This document shows positions 13,388-47,151 of a DNA stretch of 64,000 nucleotides, one piece after another; within the stretch, counting starts at the first letter, position 1, and every line of letters starts with the position of its first letter. A model generated the notes under the pieces. The model ran no database searches and had not been told where the DNA came from. It saw only the letters and a program-made list of their open reading frames with translations. Origin of the DNA: Lachnospiraceae bacterium (GTDB lineage: Bacteria > Bacillota > Clostridia > Lachnospirales > Lachnospiraceae); the NCBI GenBank assembly GCA_015057585.1, contig SVEF01000003.1, forward strand, positions 1 to 64,000, written 5' to 3'. Made by a program: the position numbers and the translations under genes.

Positions 13388-14041
13388 ATGAAGCCAACCA
13401 TCAAAAAAGAAAATGTTACGCCTTTATTTGATTCCAAATACATTAAGGTATTTGACCTCGAATACGAAAAAGGAAAGCACTATTTCGATGCTTCCCGCAG
13501 GACCAAAGAAAACCTCATGGCAATTAAGACAGACGAAGCATTCCAGCGCGCACTTCCGGATGCTGTCTCCTGCGTCGTTATTTTAAAAATCGCGGACGAT
13601 GAACCAAAGCTCTTACTGACAAAAGAATACCGATATCCGGCCGGGCAATTTTTGCTCAGTCCGCCGGCAGGTCTTTTGGATGCAGAAGATGAAAACGAAG
13701 AAAATCCGCTCCTTGCTACGGCAAAAAGAGAAATTGAAGAAGAAACCGGACTGGTACTCACAGAGCACGACCGGCTTCATGTCATCAATCCTCTTTTGTT
13801 CTCCACACCGGGCATGACCGACGAGAGCAACGCGCTGGTCTGTGCCGTAGTGCATGCAAATGACACCTCCGCCCTTTCGCAGGAGGGTGCTGTCGGCACG
13901 GAACAATTTGACGGCTTTGCGCTTCTGACCAAGGAGGACGCCCTCCGCATCCTAAAAAACGGCAGGGATGATGACGGAATTTTTTACTCCATCTTCACCT
14001 GGGCCACCCTGATGTATTTTGTATCGGATTTGTGGAAATAG
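13388..14041 (+). CDS. NUDIX hydrolase, ADP-ribose pyrophosphatase-like
   Basis: A 217-residue NUDIX protein. The NUDIX box is readable (PPAGLLDAEDENEENP, then KREIEEETGL). It contains a few extra residues between the glycine and the REUXEEXGU part, as seen in many Clostridial ADP-ribose pyrophosphatase-like members. Such enzymes split nucleoside diphosphates linked to another moiety. The start at 13388 has a GGAAAGGA site. An in-frame extension to 13265 lacks one and would add a non-conserved hydrophobic stretch. The DUF2971 gene follows 13 bp after its stop, so the two are probably co-transcribed. Confidence 0.85.
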   Translation: MKPTIKKENVTPLFDSKYIKVFDLEYEKGKHYFDASRRTKENLMAIKTDEAFQRALPDAVSCVVILKIADDEPKLLLTKEYRYPAGQFLLSPPAGLLDAEDENEENPLLATAKREIEEETGLVLTEHDRLHVINPLLFSTPGMTDESNALVCAVVHANDTSALSQEGAVGTEQFDGFALLTKEDALRILKNGRDDDGIFYSIFTWATLMYFVSDLWK

Positions 14042-14054
14042 AAAGGAGACAACC

Positions 14055-14876
14055 ATGCTGTATCATTATACCGACTTCTCTGCCTTTGACGGTATCATCC
14101 GTTGTGCAGAGCTTCGTTTGAACAACATTTTAAATATGAACGACGCCTCAGAAATGCGTCTTTTTATGAACGGCATCTGCAAGGCCGTCATCGAAAAACT
14201 GGAGGCCGACGGCGAAAAAGAAAAAAGCCGTGCGGCAGAAAAATTCTTCCGCACCGAGCTGATGAAAGAATTCCATTACTCCGCCTATGCAGCCTGCTTC
14301 TCCAAATACCGTGACGACGCCTCCCAGTGGGAGCGCTACGGCCATTACGGACAGGGGGTATGCATCGCCTTCCACGAGGAGATGATGCAAAAGATGACCG
14401 GTGGTGCCGTTTCCCTGGAAGAAGTCTTTTACCAGGAGGATATGCATGAACACCGTCTGGTCGAGGCATTCTACCGTCAGATAAAAGATACGGAGAAATT
14501 CAGCGAGGACTCCGGTGCTCTGCACGACCTGATGAACGACGCGTGGATTCAATCCGCAGCCTTCAAGCATCCGTCCTTCGCGAGCGAAAAAGAATTCCGT
14601 CTGGTCGTTTCTCCGTTCATCTCGAATGAATTTGCGGTAGAACCGAAATACCATGTTGCCAAGGACCGAATCAAAAAATACTATCCGCTTAACCTAAATC
14701 GCATGTGCAGCAAGTTAAACATGCACTTATCCGATTTGGTCGGCGAAATCATCATCGGACCTACGTCTCCGCAGTCCATCCCGATTTTACAGGACTATTT
14801 ATCCGACTGCGGACTCAACGTCCTCAAGAACAAAATCCACATGTCGAATTGTCCTCTGAGGAAGCCGACGTCTTGA
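14055..14876 (+). CDS. DUF2971 family protein
   Basis: A 273-residue protein that opens with LYHYTDFSAFDGIIRCAELRL, the conserved start of DUF2971, and contains the family segment SAYAACFSKYRDDASQWERYG. DUF2971 proteins are cytosolic and uncharacterised. Their H-Y-T and D-S-W-Y pattern has been compared with ADP-ribosyltransferase-like folds, a remote link I cannot test here. Some occur in defence islands. Here it follows a NUDIX hydrolase gene by 13 bp, which would fit a nucleotide-related role. The preferred start has an AAAGGAGAC site. Confidence 0.75.
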   Translation: MLYHYTDFSAFDGIIRCAELRLNNILNMNDASEMRLFMNGICKAVIEKLEADGEKEKSRAAEKFFRTELMKEFHYSAYAACFSKYRDDASQWERYGHYGQGVCIAFHEEMMQKMTGGAVSLEEVFYQEDMHEHRLVEAFYRQIKDTEKFSEDSGALHDLMNDAWIQSAAFKHPSFASEKEFRLVVSPFISNEFAVEPKYHVAKDRIKKYYPLNLNRMCSKLNMHLSDLVGEIIIGPTSPQSIPILQDYLSDCGLNVLKNKIHMSNCPLRKPTS

Positions 14877-14971
14877 TGGTTTCCGAGGTGAAGATTTTCT
14901 CTCACTGTCCGATTACACAACGATGAATTTTATAGAATTTTGCATGCAGAAATTCATATGTAACGTGACCG

Positions 14972-15009
14972 CCCCGAAATCCGCCCTCCTTGGCGGTTCG
15001 GGGCTTTTT
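14972..15009 (+). terminator. Intrinsic terminator after the DUF2971 gene
   Basis: Stem CCCCGAAnnCCGCC / GGCGGTTCGGGG (14972-15003) is followed by CTTTTT. It lies about 95 bp after the stop codon. The rest of the gap up to 15243 shows no gene or signal that I can support. Confidence 0.75.
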
Positions 15010-15243
15010 CTGACCTCCTGTCAGAAAATCACTGAAAACGAAGCAAAATTCTTAAAATTCTATCGTTGCTCCATCATGGACATCTTCGAGAAAATCTTCA
15101 TCATCAAAACCAGGCAAGACCGTCGGCTTCTTTCAGACAATTCGACATGTTCCTACAGACAGAACCAGCACCGACATTTTCCCGAGCTTGGCGTATGCTA
15201 TCAACCCACACATCACACTCTTCGCTTGAAGTAACTTTGGGCA

Positions 15244-15425
15244 GAAATTAGTGTAACGCAAAAAGAAATCCCTATTTCATTACTCAATTGTACTTCCTCT
15301 CAGCGGATGGATGTACGTATCCCGGCGAACATGCCTTTAGGTATGATTCGCCGGAGACGTATATCTGTCCGAGGAGCGGAAGCACAAGAGTAAGAAATAG
15401 GGATTTCCTACGTTACACTAATTTC
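15244..15425. repeat. 182-bp near-perfect hairpin
   Basis: The outer arms are a perfect 15-bp pair (15244-15258 with 15411-15425). Inside, GAAATCCCTATTTC is matched by GAAATAGGGATTTC. Further in, TTGTACTTCC / GGAAGCACAA and CCGGCGAA / TTCGCCGG pair down to a small TTTA loop. Almost the whole 182 bp can fold into one rod, with small bulges. It stands nine bases after the lipoprotein stop codon (minus strand) and could act as terminator and 3'-end stabiliser. It does not share the loop motif seen at 33.7 and 42.1 kb. Confidence 0.8.
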
Positions 15426-15434
15426 GTTTTCAAA

Positions 15435-16175
15435 TTACTTCACTGTAATACCTGTGATGTGTGGGTTGATACCATCATACCAGTACACGAAACCTTCCAC
15501 GTCAATGGTATCGCCAACCTTTAAGTTCTGTGCTGCCTTGTAAACATCGGTATCCTTACCGCAAAGGTAGGACTCTACTAAGAAAGTGTAGGTCTTTCCG
15601 TTTACGGAAACGTTGAAGTAAACGTCATCGCCTTCTGCACCGGAGCCGTTCCACTTGTAAAGGAAAGGAACTTCGTTGCCGTCTGCATCCTTAGAGGCCT
15701 CAACCTTAAGGCCCTTGAAGGAAGCAAATTCATTCTGGTGCTTAATCATATCATCTGTGCCAAGAAGGGAAGTTAAATCTGCAGCTTCTGCTACATAGTT
15801 GCCTTCTAAGATTTCGAAAGTACCGTCAATAATTTCTACTTCGCCTGCGTACTCAGCCTTGTAGCCCTTTACGCGGATCTTTGTACCAGGAACTAACTTT
15901 GCAGCGTCAGCTTCTGTACAAGCCATGTTGTATGCGAAGTATGCACCGTCGCCATCCTGTAAGTAAGCAACAATCTTATTGTCCCACCAGCTCTGTGTTG
16001 CCTGAACGTAAGCTTCGATGGTAACTTCAGCGTCTAATGCTGCTGCCGTGTACTCTGCGTGTGTCATAACACCTTCGGACTTTGCATTGACGTCTTCCTT
16101 TGCGCCGCCGCATGCGGTAAGACCAACGACCATAACTACTGCTAAAAGTAATGCTGTTAACTTTTTCATTTTCAT
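15435..16175 (-). CDS. Secreted lipoprotein with OB-fold-like repeats
   Basis: A 246-residue lipoprotein. The signal peptide ends in the lipobox LTAC (Cys22 counted from the first Met), followed by a GGAK linker. The mature part has two halves with similar strand patterns: VTIEAYVQATQSWWDNKIVAYLQDGDGAYFAY, and a C-terminal segment with TYTFLVESYL and GDTIDVEGFVYWYDG. These recall OB-fold nucleic-acid-binding domains of exported clostridial lipoproteins. Ligand and function are unknown. It has its own promoter and is followed by the 182-bp hairpin. It is separate from the ABC importer operon, which ends 95 bp upstream. Confidence 0.75.
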   Translation of the reverse strand: MKMKKLTALLLAVVMVVGLTACGGAKEDVNAKSEGVMTHAEYTAAALDAEVTIEAYVQATQSWWDNKIVAYLQDGDGAYFAYNMACTEADAAKLVPGTKIRVKGYKAEYAGEVEIIDGTFEILEGNYVAEAADLTSLLGTDDMIKHQNEFASFKGLKVEASKDADGNEVPFLYKWNGSGAEGDDVYFNVSVNGKTYTFLVESYLCGKDTDVYKAAQNLKVGDTIDVEGFVYWYDGINPHITGITVK

Positions 16176-33400: not shown

Positions 33401-33690
33401 CCTCCGGTGTTCCGGCAACCAGAGTAAACAAGCTCTCCGAGGGCCGTCCGAACATCCTGGACTTAATCACCAACGGTCAGATTGACTTAATTGTCAACAC
33501 TCCTGCCGGCAAGGACAGCATCACAGACGACAGCTACCTGCGTAAGGCTGCCATCAAGGCAAAGATTCCTTACATGACCACCGTTGCTGCAGCAAAGGCT
33601 ACCGCAGACGGCATCCACCATGTATTGAAGCACGGCCGCAGCCAGGTACGTTCCTTACAGGAATTGCATGCGGAGATTCATGATAAGTAA
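30466..33690 (+). CDS. carB: Carbamoyl-phosphate synthase large subunit
   Basis: A 1074-residue CarB at the usual length. Two ATP-grasp halves are clear (first half around EDRVEFKKAMEALGIE, second half starting at KVMILGGGPNRIGQGIEFDY), as are the oligomerisation middle and the C-terminal MGS-like allosteric domain (about 935-1074, ILATGGNCDLL). It makes carbamoyl phosphate from bicarbonate, ammonia and two ATP for pyrimidine and arginine synthesis. The glutaminase subunit gene carA is not adjacent, which is unusual, and must lie elsewhere. It has its own promoter and is followed 15 bp later by a long hairpin element. Confidence 0.97.
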   Translation: MPKRTDINKVLIIGSGPIIIGQACEFDYSGTQACKALRSLGYEIVLVNSNPATIMTDPETADVTYIEPLNVERLEQIIAKERPDALLPNLGGQSGLNLCSELHEAGILDKYNVKVIGVQVDAIERGEDRVEFKKAMEALGIEMARSEVAYTVDEALAIADKLGYPVVLRPAYTMGGAGGGLVYNKEELSTVCARGLQASLVGQVLVEESILGWEELEVEVVRDADNNMITVCFIENIDPLGVHTGDSFCSAPMLTISKECQERLKEQAFKIVESVEVIGGTNVQFAHDPVSDRIIVIEINPRTSRSSALASKATGFPIALVSALLAAGLTLKDIPCGKYGTLDKYVPDGDYVVIKFARWAFEKFKGVEDKLGTQMRAVGEVMSIGKTYKEAFQKAIRSLETGRYGLGYAKNFHELSKEELLKLLITPSSERHFIMYEALRKGATVEEIHAITKVKHFFIKQMLELVEEEEALLTCKGGLPSDEMLVSAKKNGFSDKYLSKLLEISEDEIRARRMVLGVEEAWEGVHVSGTENSAYYYSTYNAPDKNPVSEDKPKVMILGGGPNRIGQGIEFDYCCVHASLALRKLGFETIIVNCNPETVSTDYDTSDKLYFEPLTLEDVLSIYKKEKPVGVIAQFGGQTPLNLAADLEKNGVKILGTSPAVIDLAEDRDLFREMMDKLEIPMPESGMATTVEEALEIAHQIGYPTMVRPSYVLGGRGMEVVYDDESMINYMNAAVGVTPDRPILIDRFLNNALECEADAISDGTNAFVPAVMEHIELAGVHSGDSACVLPSKHISPENVATIKEYTRRIAEEMHVKGLMNMQYAIENGKVYVLEANPRASRTVPLVSKVCNIRMVPLATEIITSELTGNPSPVPGLKDQNIPYYGVKEAVFPFNMFPEVDPLLGPEMRSTGEVLGLSASYGGAFYKAQEGTQSKLPLSGTVLISVNRKDKADVVEVARSFANDGFKILATGGNCDLLNASGVPATRVNKLSEGRPNILDLITNGQIDLIVNTPAGKDSITDDSYLRKAAIKAKIPYMTTVAAAKATADGIHHVLKHGRSQVRSLQELHAEIHDK

Positions 33691-33705
33691 GATGTAACAT
33701 GCAAC

Positions 33706-33840
33706 GAAAAATGTAGCAGAATTTAAGTTATAGAATAAAGCCCCACCGGAGAACTATTCCACGCGCTCATGGCAAAAATCGCTGCTTAGGAATAGTTCTC
33801 CGGTGGGGCTTATTTATGTTTTGAATCTGCTACATTTTTC
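33706..33840. repeat. 135-bp long hairpin element with conserved apical loop (copy 1)
   Basis: Outer arms of 15 bp (33706-33720 / 33826-33840), an irregular internal region, then a perfect 23-bp inner stem (33738-33760 / 33789-33811) and a 28-nt loop. Read on the minus strand, the apex is CTAAGCAGCGAT ... GAGCGCGTG. The same two loop blocks occur in the element at 42097-42257, although the stems share no sequence. It sits between carB (plus) and a short convergent frame whose stop codon is inside the right arm. Confidence 0.85.
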
Positions 33841-34069
33841 TGTTCCAGATGACAAACGCTCTTATTGCATCTGCCTCAAATTCATCATAAATCAGGTTTC
33901 GCCACTCGCATTCGCCACGATACACCTTGATAAACTTCTCAAATCCATACTTTTGAATGAAGTACCATACATAAACACCGGCATAATCATATCCCTGATT
34001 ATCAACAAAATTGTCAAAGCCAATCAGGTCAGTCACCCTTGGGCACTCCGAAGCACTGATATAGTTCAA
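33830..34069 (-). CDS. Short frame after the ABC-F gene, likely C-terminal remnant of a peptidase-like protein
   Basis: A 79-codon frame with a TTG start that overlaps the ABC-F stop codon (TTGA), without a strong ribosome binding site. The sequence GYDYAGVYVWYFIQKYGFEKFIKVY resembles the C-terminal helices of gluzincin (MA clan) peptidases, where a Y-hydrophobic-IxxKYG segment is common. It lacks any catalytic motif. It may be translated by coupling to the ABC-F gene, or be a dead fragment joined there by a deletion. The last codons lie in the arm of the long hairpin. Confidence 0.4.
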   Translation of the reverse strand: MNYISASECPRVTDLIGFDNFVDNQGYDYAGVYVWYFIQKYGFEKFIKVYRGECEWRNLIYDEFEADAIRAFVIWNRKM

Positions 34070-42014: not shown

Positions 42015-42096
42015 GAGGTACTTTTACATTTTTTTCGCATACGCTCATTTCTATTTTTTCCGTAGCACATAAGCGGACTCTTATTCTAATCTTCGC

Positions 42097-42257
42097 AAAC
42101 AAATCAGGGATTTCGTCCTCTAACTACAACACCCCGGGCTGACAAATATATCTAAGCAGCGATCATTCGGGGCCGCATAAGCGGCATCCGAGTCGCGCGT
42201 GATATATTTGTCAGCCCGGGGTGATTTTCTCAGTTTATAGAAATCCCTGATTTGTTT
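42097..42257. repeat. 161-bp long hairpin element with conserved apical loop (copy 2)
   Basis: Outer arms of 18 bp (42097-42114 / 42240-42257), an irregular AT-rich internal region, a perfect 22-bp inner stem (42130-42151 / 42202-42223) and a 50-nt apex. The apex begins CTAAGCAGCGAT, contains a small GCCGC/GCGGC hairpin and ends GAGTCGCGCGTG. The same end blocks occur in the element after carB. It lies nine bases after the mmsA stop codon. The 24-bp outer region between it and the DUF2812 promoter shows nothing else. Confidence 0.85.
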
Positions 42258-42266
42258 CTCAATTAT

Positions 42267-43769
42267 TTAGATGGTACCGTCCCATGTGCTGACGGTCGTC
42301 TTCTTCATTTCTTCTTCATCAAACCAACGTGTGGTTACGCACTTGCTCTCTGTATAGAACTTGATGCCGTCCTTACCAAGACAGTGCAAATCACCAAAGA
42401 AGGAATCCTTATGTCCGGAGAATGGGAATACACCAACCGGCACCGGAATACCAACGTTGATACCCACCATACCACCGTGTGTTCTTTCCATGAACTCTCT
42501 GGAATAATAACCGCTCTGTGTAAAAATAACGGAACCGTTTGCAAACGGATTGTTATTCATGATTTCAAGACCTTCCTCGAATGTCTTTACTCTCTTGATG
42601 CAAAGAACCGGTCCAAAGATTTCATTCGTACCAATGCTCATATCTTCGGTGACATGGTCAAAGATGGTTGGTCCTAAATAATAGCCGCCTTCAAAACCTT
42701 CTACCGTTACATTTCTTCCGTCAAGTACAAGTTCTGCACCCTCATCGATACCTTTCTGGATCCACTTCAAGATGCTCTCCTTATGCTTTGCATTCACCAC
42801 CGGACCGAGACCGGAGGTCTTGTCATAAGCCGGACCTACCTTTAAGCCCTGTGCAAGTTCTTTTAACTTAGCCACGAGTGCATCCGCAATGCCTTCCTGA
42901 GCCACTACCACCGGAAGAGCCATACAACGCTCACCTGCACAACCGAATGCAGAGTTCATAATACCTGCTGCAGTACGGTCCACCGGAGCGTCATTTAAAA
43001 CAAGGGCATGGTTCTTTGCTTCACAAAGTGCCTGTACTCTCTTTCCGTGCGCTGCTGCTACGGAGTAGATGTGCTTACCAACAGAGGTCGATCCTACGAA
43101 GGAAATACCCTTAATATCCGGATGTGTCAAGAAAATTTCTGCCTCGTCTCTGCTACATGTCACAATGTTAAGAACACCGTCCGGAAGACCTGCTTCCTTA
43201 TATAATTCTGCAAAGCGGAGTGCTGTTCTTGGTGTGAAACTGGCACCCTTTAACACGATGGTGTTACCTGCTGCGATACACATCGGAGTCATCCAGCCCA
43301 TTGGAATCATTGCCGGGAAGTTAAACGGAATGATACCTGCAAATACACCTAAGGATTCTCTGTATAATACCGTGTCAAATCCTTTGGAAGCATTCATTAA
43401 GGATTCACCCATAATAAGACTTGGTGCAGAGCAGGCAAGTTCAGTTCCTTCCTTTGCCTTTAATACATCGCCTTCTGCCTCGCTCCAAACCTTACCGTGC
43501 TCCTGTGCCACAAGGTAAGTGAGTTCTTCCATATGCTCTTCAATCAACTGGCGCACCTTATAAAGAATCTGTACACGCTTTACGATAGGCACCTTAGACC
43601 ATGTCTTGTAAGCTTCTTTTGCAATCGCGATAGTTTCCTCTACCTCTTCCTTTGTACAGCAAGGCACAAGCGCAGTTACTTCACCTGTACTCGGATTGTA
43701 AACTTCATTGTACTTGTCGGTCTTGGACTCACGATACTGTCCGCCGGCAAAATATTTTAACTTTTCCAT
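42267..43769 (-). CDS. mmsA: CoA-acylating methylmalonate-semialdehyde dehydrogenase-type enzyme
   Basis: A 500-residue aldehyde dehydrogenase of the MmsA/IolA group, which turns malonate or methylmalonate semialdehyde into acetyl- or propionyl-CoA with NAD+ and CoA. It has the cofactor loop GSTSVG, the catalytic cysteine in GCAGERCMALP and the group segment FNFPAMIPMGW. The start at 43769 has an AAAGGAGG site. An upstream in-frame start to 43811 lies across the promoter region. It is divergent from a MarR gene and has its own regulated promoter. The typical inositol or valine pathway genes are absent nearby, so the substrate is not certain. Confidence 0.9.
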   Translation of the reverse strand: MEKLKYFAGGQYRESKTDKYNEVYNPSTGEVTALVPCCTKEEVEETIAIAKEAYKTWSKVPIVKRVQILYKVRQLIEEHMEELTYLVAQEHGKVWSEAEGDVLKAKEGTELACSAPSLIMGESLMNASKGFDTVLYRESLGVFAGIIPFNFPAMIPMGWMTPMCIAAGNTIVLKGASFTPRTALRFAELYKEAGLPDGVLNIVTCSRDEAEIFLTHPDIKGISFVGSTSVGKHIYSVAAAHGKRVQALCEAKNHALVLNDAPVDRTAAGIMNSAFGCAGERCMALPVVVAQEGIADALVAKLKELAQGLKVGPAYDKTSGLGPVVNAKHKESILKWIQKGIDEGAELVLDGRNVTVEGFEGGYYLGPTIFDHVTEDMSIGTNEIFGPVLCIKRVKTFEEGLEIMNNNPFANGSVIFTQSGYYSREFMERTHGGMVGINVGIPVPVGVFPFSGHKDSFFGDLHCLGKDGIKFYTESKCVTTRWFDEEEMKKTTVSTWDGTI

Positions 43770-46742: not shown

Positions 46743-46781
46743 GCAGGGATATAGAACAAATATATCCCTGCTTCTTTTTTT
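46743..46781 (+). terminator. Terminator after the aminotransferase gene
   Basis: GCAGGGATATA (46743-46753) pairs with TATATCCCTGC (46761-46771), followed by TTCTTTTTTT. Confidence 0.85.
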
Positions 46782-46819
46782 GTCCCTGTTTATCGAAAAT
46801 GTCCCGTCTTCTTTCCCTA

Positions 46820-47052
46820 TTTGTATGTATAGATATTTTTTCTATGCTTTCTATACAAAATCCCAGGAAATCTCCCCTATTCTTGCCATAATTGTATGTA
46901 TACAGAAAAAAACGCTTATTTCTATACCGACATTCGCCTATTTGTGTATAAAAACTCACAGATTTTTTCCTATACATACAATCCGTAACAAGTCCATACT
47001 ATCCCCCCTCAAATTTGTATATATTTCAATCAAAACATTCCTATACATACAA
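46820..47052. repeat. Cluster of TTGTATGTATAG repeats in a convergent gap
   Basis: Copies of TTGTATGTATA(G) occur at 46821 and 46892, and as the reverse complement at 46970-46981 and 47041-47052. Degenerate copies are at 46941, 47015 and 46851. Spacing varies from about 30 to 75 bp. The gap lies between the 3' ends of the aminotransferase and glucosidase genes, where promoters are not expected. A minus-strand open frame (46486-46977) is produced by the repeats and is not credible as a gene. Confidence 0.6.
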
Positions 47053-47151
47053 AATAGTAGCTTCCTACTTTCAAAGCAACAAAAAAAGACAATCGGATGC
47101 CGAAAATCGCACCCCGTTGCCTTTTTTTCATAAAATAACTCCTGATAAAAC

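Follow-up and report, generated by a model that had tools for sequence, protein, structure and literature searches.

A REP-like gene-end repeat in a Lachnospiraceae genome, set in a long rod with an inverted copy of the host gene's end

Palindromic repeats behind genes are common in bacteria, and the origin and upkeep of long matched stems is an old puzzle. REP/BIME repeats go together with a Y1 (REP-associated) transposase in the genome. In the available excerpts of PMC12306157 and PMC1590033, REP/BIME and similar palindromes (Bor, Ype, Efa) are described as dispersed, located near gene 3′ ends and transcribed with the gene, and in those of PMC3733652 REPs are described as small (20–40 bp).

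Here we analyzed a window of 64,000 nucleotides from Lachnospiraceae bacterium (GCA_015057585.1, contig SVEF01000003.1, positions 1 to 64,000), in which a long hairpin stands behind a lipoprotein gene. The core of this hairpin belongs to a repeat family that is closest in habit to REPs and similar gene-end palindromes: it is a dispersed palindromic repeat found outside genes and near gene ends, with 11 copies in the own genome (G000). Unlike REPs, which are small units with a conserved stem of their own, the core measures ~113 nt and is embedded in a rod that reaches up to ~300 nt and whose stems are locus-specific; half of the tested core copies are accompanied by the inverted coding end of the gene. 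A further difference is that the Y1 transposase domain PF01797 was not found in G000 or in the genomes G107 and G153, although it is present in the relatives G001–G003.

The rods resemble intrinsic (bidirectional) terminators in standing behind the stop codon and, in many cases, in carrying an A-tract, a stem and a T-tract, but their stem is several times longer, and they also contain the conserved core of the repeat and the coding end of the gene in inverted form. Terminal inverted repeats common to the copies, as in MITEs, were not found; here the centre is conserved and the ends are locus-specific, and no direct target-site duplication caught the eye. Template-switch mutations at quasipalindromes, as described in part of PMC8794818, also leave reverse-complement copies beside a hairpin; in contrast to these, the rods recur at gene ends, are tied to dispersed cores and extend tens of nucleotides into the coding sequence. 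The open-licence papers searched, to the extent that their text was available, contained no description of inverted gene-end copies beside palindromic repeats.

The rod behind the lipoprotein gene

A preliminary description proposed a 182-bp rod at 15244–15425, with a perfect 15-bp outer stem, small bulges and a TTTA loop, and all of these elements were borne out by folding. It also held that the reading would fail if the fold were no better than that of shuffled sequence or if the hairpin were part of a known transposable element. The minimum free energy of 15244–15425 was −107.9 kcal/mol as compared with −39.3 ± 4.1 for 200 dinucleotide shuffles, none of which was as good (z −16.9), and no known transposable element was recognised in the hairpin. 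The position nine bases after the lipoprotein stop codon was likewise correct. The extent needs correction, since the rod stands but its ends do not: the pairing spans 15195 to 15475 through the additional inverted repeats 15227–15258/15411–15442 and 15195–15217/15453–15475, and thereby enters the lipoprotein coding sequence by 41 nt. Both the entry of the arms into the gene and the copying of the gene end by the far arm had been overlooked. The parts of the locus are listed in Table 1, where the sense strand of the core is the strand of the gene that the core follows.

Table 1. Features of the lipoprotein–DUF2971 locus (window coordinates).
Feature	Position	Strand	Basis
Repeat core, ~113-nt rod with conserved internal loops	15281–15392	−	9 aligned own copies, models R1/R2, covariation
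Near inner stem, stop codon to core, locus-specific sequence	15393–15434	−	pairs with 15235–15280
Far inner stem, T-run TTTTTGCG on sense strand	15235–15280	−	folding, T-run counts
Outer far arm, inverted copy of the last ~40 nt of the lipoprotein gene including the stop codon	15195–15234	−	
Lipoprotein gene; coding end 15435–15475 is the near (ancestral) outer arm	15435–16175	−	ORF list
Neighbouring rod built on TwoAYGGAY RNA	14838–15153	.	Rfam match 14910–15076 (minus), palindrome scan
DUF2971 gene, convergent with the lipoprotein gene	14019–14876	+	PF11185, 44.7 bits

Over 23 nt, the outer far arm is 96% complementary to 15453–15475, and its coding-only score is 21.0 over 41 nt against a 99% point of 8.2 in the null. 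The C-terminus of the lipoprotein is conserved in G001 and G003, and among the relatives listed, with up to 69% identity, most come from rumen and gut Clostridia MAGs. Inside both rods of the locus there is also a 103-codon ORF (14923–15234), which is probably not a gene.

The hairpin has no family name in Rfam. Weak matches over it (mir-653, sroH, mir-880) were rejected as far below the gathering scores. The hairpins at 33.7 and 42.1 kb of the window also stand behind gene ends, and their loop motif recurs at L012:16342–16482. The suggestion that the lipoprotein hairpin might be of a different family with the same position habit proved apt: its core forms a repeat family of its own, distinct from those elements, and the homologous hairpins that had been proposed as a check were found, core copies being present behind the stop codons of other genes.

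The repeat family and its stems

A DNA search of the own genome (3.01 Mb, 39 contigs) returned ten rows, namely the query on both strands and eight other places; because the core is nearly symmetrical, both strands often match and rows outnumber copies. Only the middle of the hairpin (15281–15392) aligns between copies; the outer stems differ from locus to locus, yet they pair. Model R1, built from nine own cores, detected 10 own copies and gave matches in all four genomes of the genus, own included. Model R2, built from 36 sense-oriented cores whose alignment contains covariation, added the 11th own copy and, with the stricter filters used in that search, matched 3 of 150 genomes of the family, own included. 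In total, 52 copies were surveyed (11 own, 18 in G001, 12 in G002, 6 in G003, 3 in G107 and 2 in G153). Two of them were set aside, one being a duplicate situated in the inverted end of contig G001:C8 and the other lying 5 bp from the end of its contig, which left 50. In a tree of 36 cores, the 10 own cores among them form one clade with support 1.0, which points to a lineage-specific burst. A search with R1 of 80 loci round relatives of the lipoprotein gave no match in 609,390 bases, a result that concerns these loci and says little about whole genomes.

A clear gene, defined as an open frame of at least 100 codons ending within 110 bp upstream on the sense side, was present for 36 of the 50 copies. 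The distance from stop codon to core had a median of 42 bp; it was 33–59 bp in 33 of these and 20, 71 and 79 bp in the others. With a limit of 200 bp on both sides, a gene was found for 45 of 50 copies, and the sense-side gene was closer or the sole one in 37 of the 45. The copies are thus mostly in one orientation relative to the gene. The host genes are mutually unrelated and include those for topoisomerase IV A, a DNA topoisomerase, an aconitase X swivel protein, a MatE transporter, an aminotransferase, a formyltransferase and a lactate/malate dehydrogenase.

For 44 copies, the median alignment score of the arms was 34.2 over 69 nt; when partners were swapped between loci, the median was 1.6 and the 95% point 7.9, and the highest swapped score (33.6) probably comes from an orthologous pair. 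When only the coding part of the near arm was compared, 18 of the 36 copies with a clear gene scored above 8.2, the 99% point of a null of 216 swapped comparisons, as against ~0.4 expected, and the inverted coding end spans 24–60 nt in these 18. The other 18 copies with a clear gene have no coding copy beyond the null. In all arm and coding-copy figures, orthologous copies of two species are counted separately.

Seven rods that occur in more than one species allowed us to compare the fate of the pairs. In the stop-to-core stem, 222 pairs were unchanged and 26 double changes kept Watson–Crick pairing; the other changes were 16 Watson–Crick/G-U singles, 34 Watson–Crick/mismatch and 11 others. 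In the coding-end part of the same rods, 82 pairs were unchanged, and the 34 changed pairs (25 Watson–Crick/mismatch, 8 Watson–Crick/G-U and 1 other) included no double change, an outcome whose probability, by simple arithmetic, is about two in ten thousand if both stem parts behave alike. It should be noted that in three of the seven species pairs the alignment of the far arms is poor (identity 0.54–0.59), so that false double changes are possible there, and that some double changes are clustered in blocks, e.g., in G001:C116/G002:C44. Such blocks fit template switching as well as selection.

Watson–Crick pairing amounts to 91% within 20 nt of the core and 79–85% further out. On the sense strand, G-U pairs exceed A-C in the arms (108 vs. 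39 in the stop-to-core stem and 51 vs. 20 in the coding part); in the core the relation is reversed (49 vs. 89). These mismatch counts speak for RNA of the sense strand in the arms and not in the core. The excess in the arms could also stem from a C-to-T bias on the sense strand of the transcribed gene. Scarce G-U in the core was considered as a sign of mending at the DNA level, and this idea was dropped because counts were mixed between arms and core. To judge from the substitution patterns, the copied coding end looks like a scar, and the stop-to-core stem looks like the part that is kept.

In many copies a T-run follows the stem, as in intrinsic terminators, and the lipoprotein copy carries TTTTTGCG inside its far stem. 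The far arm contains TTTT 9–60 nt away from the core in 33 of 50 copies, compared with a share of 0.37 in shuffles, and in the other direction it is read in 33 of 50 copies as well. GCC followed by TTTT within two pyrimidines was found in 13 copies of 50 (0.22 expected) and TTTTGCG in 8 (0.17 expected). In the mRNA, the rod would likely act as an oversized terminator-like hairpin, terminating the transcript and protecting it.

Sites without the rod and the origin of the far arm

At five loci, sites without the rod were found in relatives, with short terminators or a short spacer in its place. In G003 the convergent lipoprotein and DUF2971 genes are 65 bp apart with a plain short terminator between them, and the outer far arm of the lipoprotein rod is absent. 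In the own genome these genes are separated by 558 bp, a stretch that accommodates two rods: the lipoprotein end is inverted in one, and the DUF2971 end in the other, a TwoAYGGAY rod. The contig of G002 ended at this locus. Behind the gene that we take, from sequence resemblance, to be purN, G001 and G002 have a spacer of ~15–20 bp before purD (named in the same way), with neither a hairpin nor a terminator, and G003 has another hairpin at the site. Behind the presumed glyA (named in the same way), the aminotransferase and topoisomerase IV A genes, short terminators were found in G001, G002 and G003. The coding ends are conserved in the relatives without the rod, and hence the near arm represents the ancestral state and the far arm a new copy. 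As is typical of template switching, a derived reverse-complement copy thus lies beside its ancestral source, the inverted copy being present only at filled sites.

Two further observations were made in relatives. The lipoprotein gene of G001 (L242) has a different core at its end, with a short inverted gene end recognised by eye, and this gene-end site may have been reused by different cores. In G002, behind topoisomerase IV A (L210), a plain terminator is followed by a second, inverted copy of the terminator's 5′ arm that reaches the stop codon; this arrangement resembles the outcome of fold-back at an ordinary terminator.

Based on the above results, we suggest with moderate confidence that the core is a REP-like non-autonomous repeat of gene 3′ ends, whose arrival involved fold-back copying of the target gene end. 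The anatomy of the rods (core, paired inner stem and, in half of the copies with a clear gene, inverted gene end) is demonstrated, and we infer the copying step and the spread. The process would start with the arrival of the core behind a stop codon. The strand running from the gene into the core would then fold back on itself, and its 3′ end would copy the gene end, after which synthesis would rejoin the downstream template (template switching or snap-back synthesis). The copying would deposit the far arm and replace the old terminator or spacer. Later, the coding part of the copy would decay, and complementarity of the inner stem may be maintained through selection acting on the transcript, through continued template switching, or through a combination of the two. 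Fold-back synthesis from a strand that has passed the core is the simplest route to the order gene, stop codon, stem, core, stem, inverted gene end. According to the available part of PMC8794818, hairpin stems can be both created and mended by template switching. A near-perfect young copy was not found among the copies, whose arms have diverged already.

Other explanations have to be weighed against the same data. The fixed orientation and position of the copies and the lineage-specific burst resemble targeted insertion, so that a retroelement or a Y1 (REP-associated) transposase might insert the core and make the arms; G001–G003 do contain Y1 domains, and G002 and G003 contain reverse transcriptase domains as well. 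The searches detected neither of the two in the own genome (estimated as 97.8% complete), G107 or G153, all of which carry the core, and no half-core with an intervening ORF appeared among the rows of the general DNA search of the own genome, which was not aimed at such structures. We therefore regard an enzyme of this kind as unlikely. Another proposal is that the core was inserted into the loop of an older long terminator, the outer arms being the old terminator stem. Many rods do have an A-tract, a GGCT..AGCC stem and a T-tract at the base of the inner stem, but the relatives at the five loci above have no such long stem, and a terminator stem is not expected to hold the gene's coding end in reverse. 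This origin appears quite unlikely as a general account and may still hold for the copies without a coding copy.

The rods might also have arisen as RNA structures through stepwise selection of single bases in the transcript, with no copying at all. The compensated changes and G-U intermediates of the stop-to-core stem and the excess of G-U over A-C in the arms agree with this, but selection would have to rebuild 24–60 nt of reverse coding sequence, where none of the 34 changed pairs is a double change, and we consider such an origin very unlikely. Chimeras from assembly or whole-genome amplification are known to produce inverted repeats; in G001, several copies are located close to the ends of contigs, and the two ends of contig G001:C8 are identical in inverted orientation. 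Nevertheless, the arms are only ~79–91% Watson–Crick paired and are thus old, the seven shared rods stand at the same gene in two species, and the cores are a structured family with covariation, all of which makes an artefact highly improbable. Fold-back copying of the gene end is the reading that we retain.

TwoAYGGAY RNA and other gene-end hairpins

The second rod of the locus is built on TwoAYGGAY RNA (RF01731), which matched the minus strand with 94 bits (gathering score 43). Its far arm is the inverted coding end of the DUF2971 gene, with a score of 21.8 over 38 nt. Including the two other own copies (G000:C13:168524 and G000:C14:50020), this RNA resembles the core family: all three copies have the same orientation relative to the gene, lie 33, 51 and 52 bp behind the stop codon and are flanked by long outer arms that pair, and one of the three passed the coding-copy test. 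The difference is that hairpin 15244–15425 is not matched by the Rfam covariance model of TwoAYGGAY, even at E values up to 5.

A k-mer scan of 161.8 kb of the own genome, selected mainly because copies were present there, revealed 18 long palindromes; in 609 kb surrounding relatives of the lipoprotein in other Clostridia, it revealed 9. Some of these palindromes carry other cores.

Several more hairpins were seen in the course of the analysis. Those at window positions 33690–33860 and 42040–42310 and at L012:16342–16482 are long gene-end hairpins sharing the loop motif ACGCGC...GATCGCTGCTTAG, or a close variant of it; their arms are paired between the stop codon and the loop. The hairpins L014:5762–5956 and L011:2064–2205 have the loop motif GACGCGCTTTCGCTCGG, and the former, located behind purD, contains an inverted purD coding end by eye. 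The large branched palindromes L009:4263–4585 and L012:10841–11079 are alike over much of their length, inner arms included, and are possibly a separate mobile element. Window positions 46772–47095 hold AT-rich inverted repeats between two genes with several copies of TTGTATGTATA, and at L015:517–821 TTTGTTGG/CCAACAAA repeats are clustered, some in each orientation.

The source (the gene end), the copy (the far arm) and the rod-free sites can be read at the same loci, which makes fold-back copying directly testable. More tentatively, the rods may represent a class of bacterial mobile elements that inversely duplicate their target, so that each insertion would lie in a rod tailored to the host gene and several cores, including TwoAYGGAY and the purD type, would share this route. 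No function is given for TwoAYGGAY RNA in the available portions of the open-licence literature. The rod data suggest a location and a lifestyle for this RNA, and if such a class of elements exists, TwoAYGGAY would be a mobile gene-end element.
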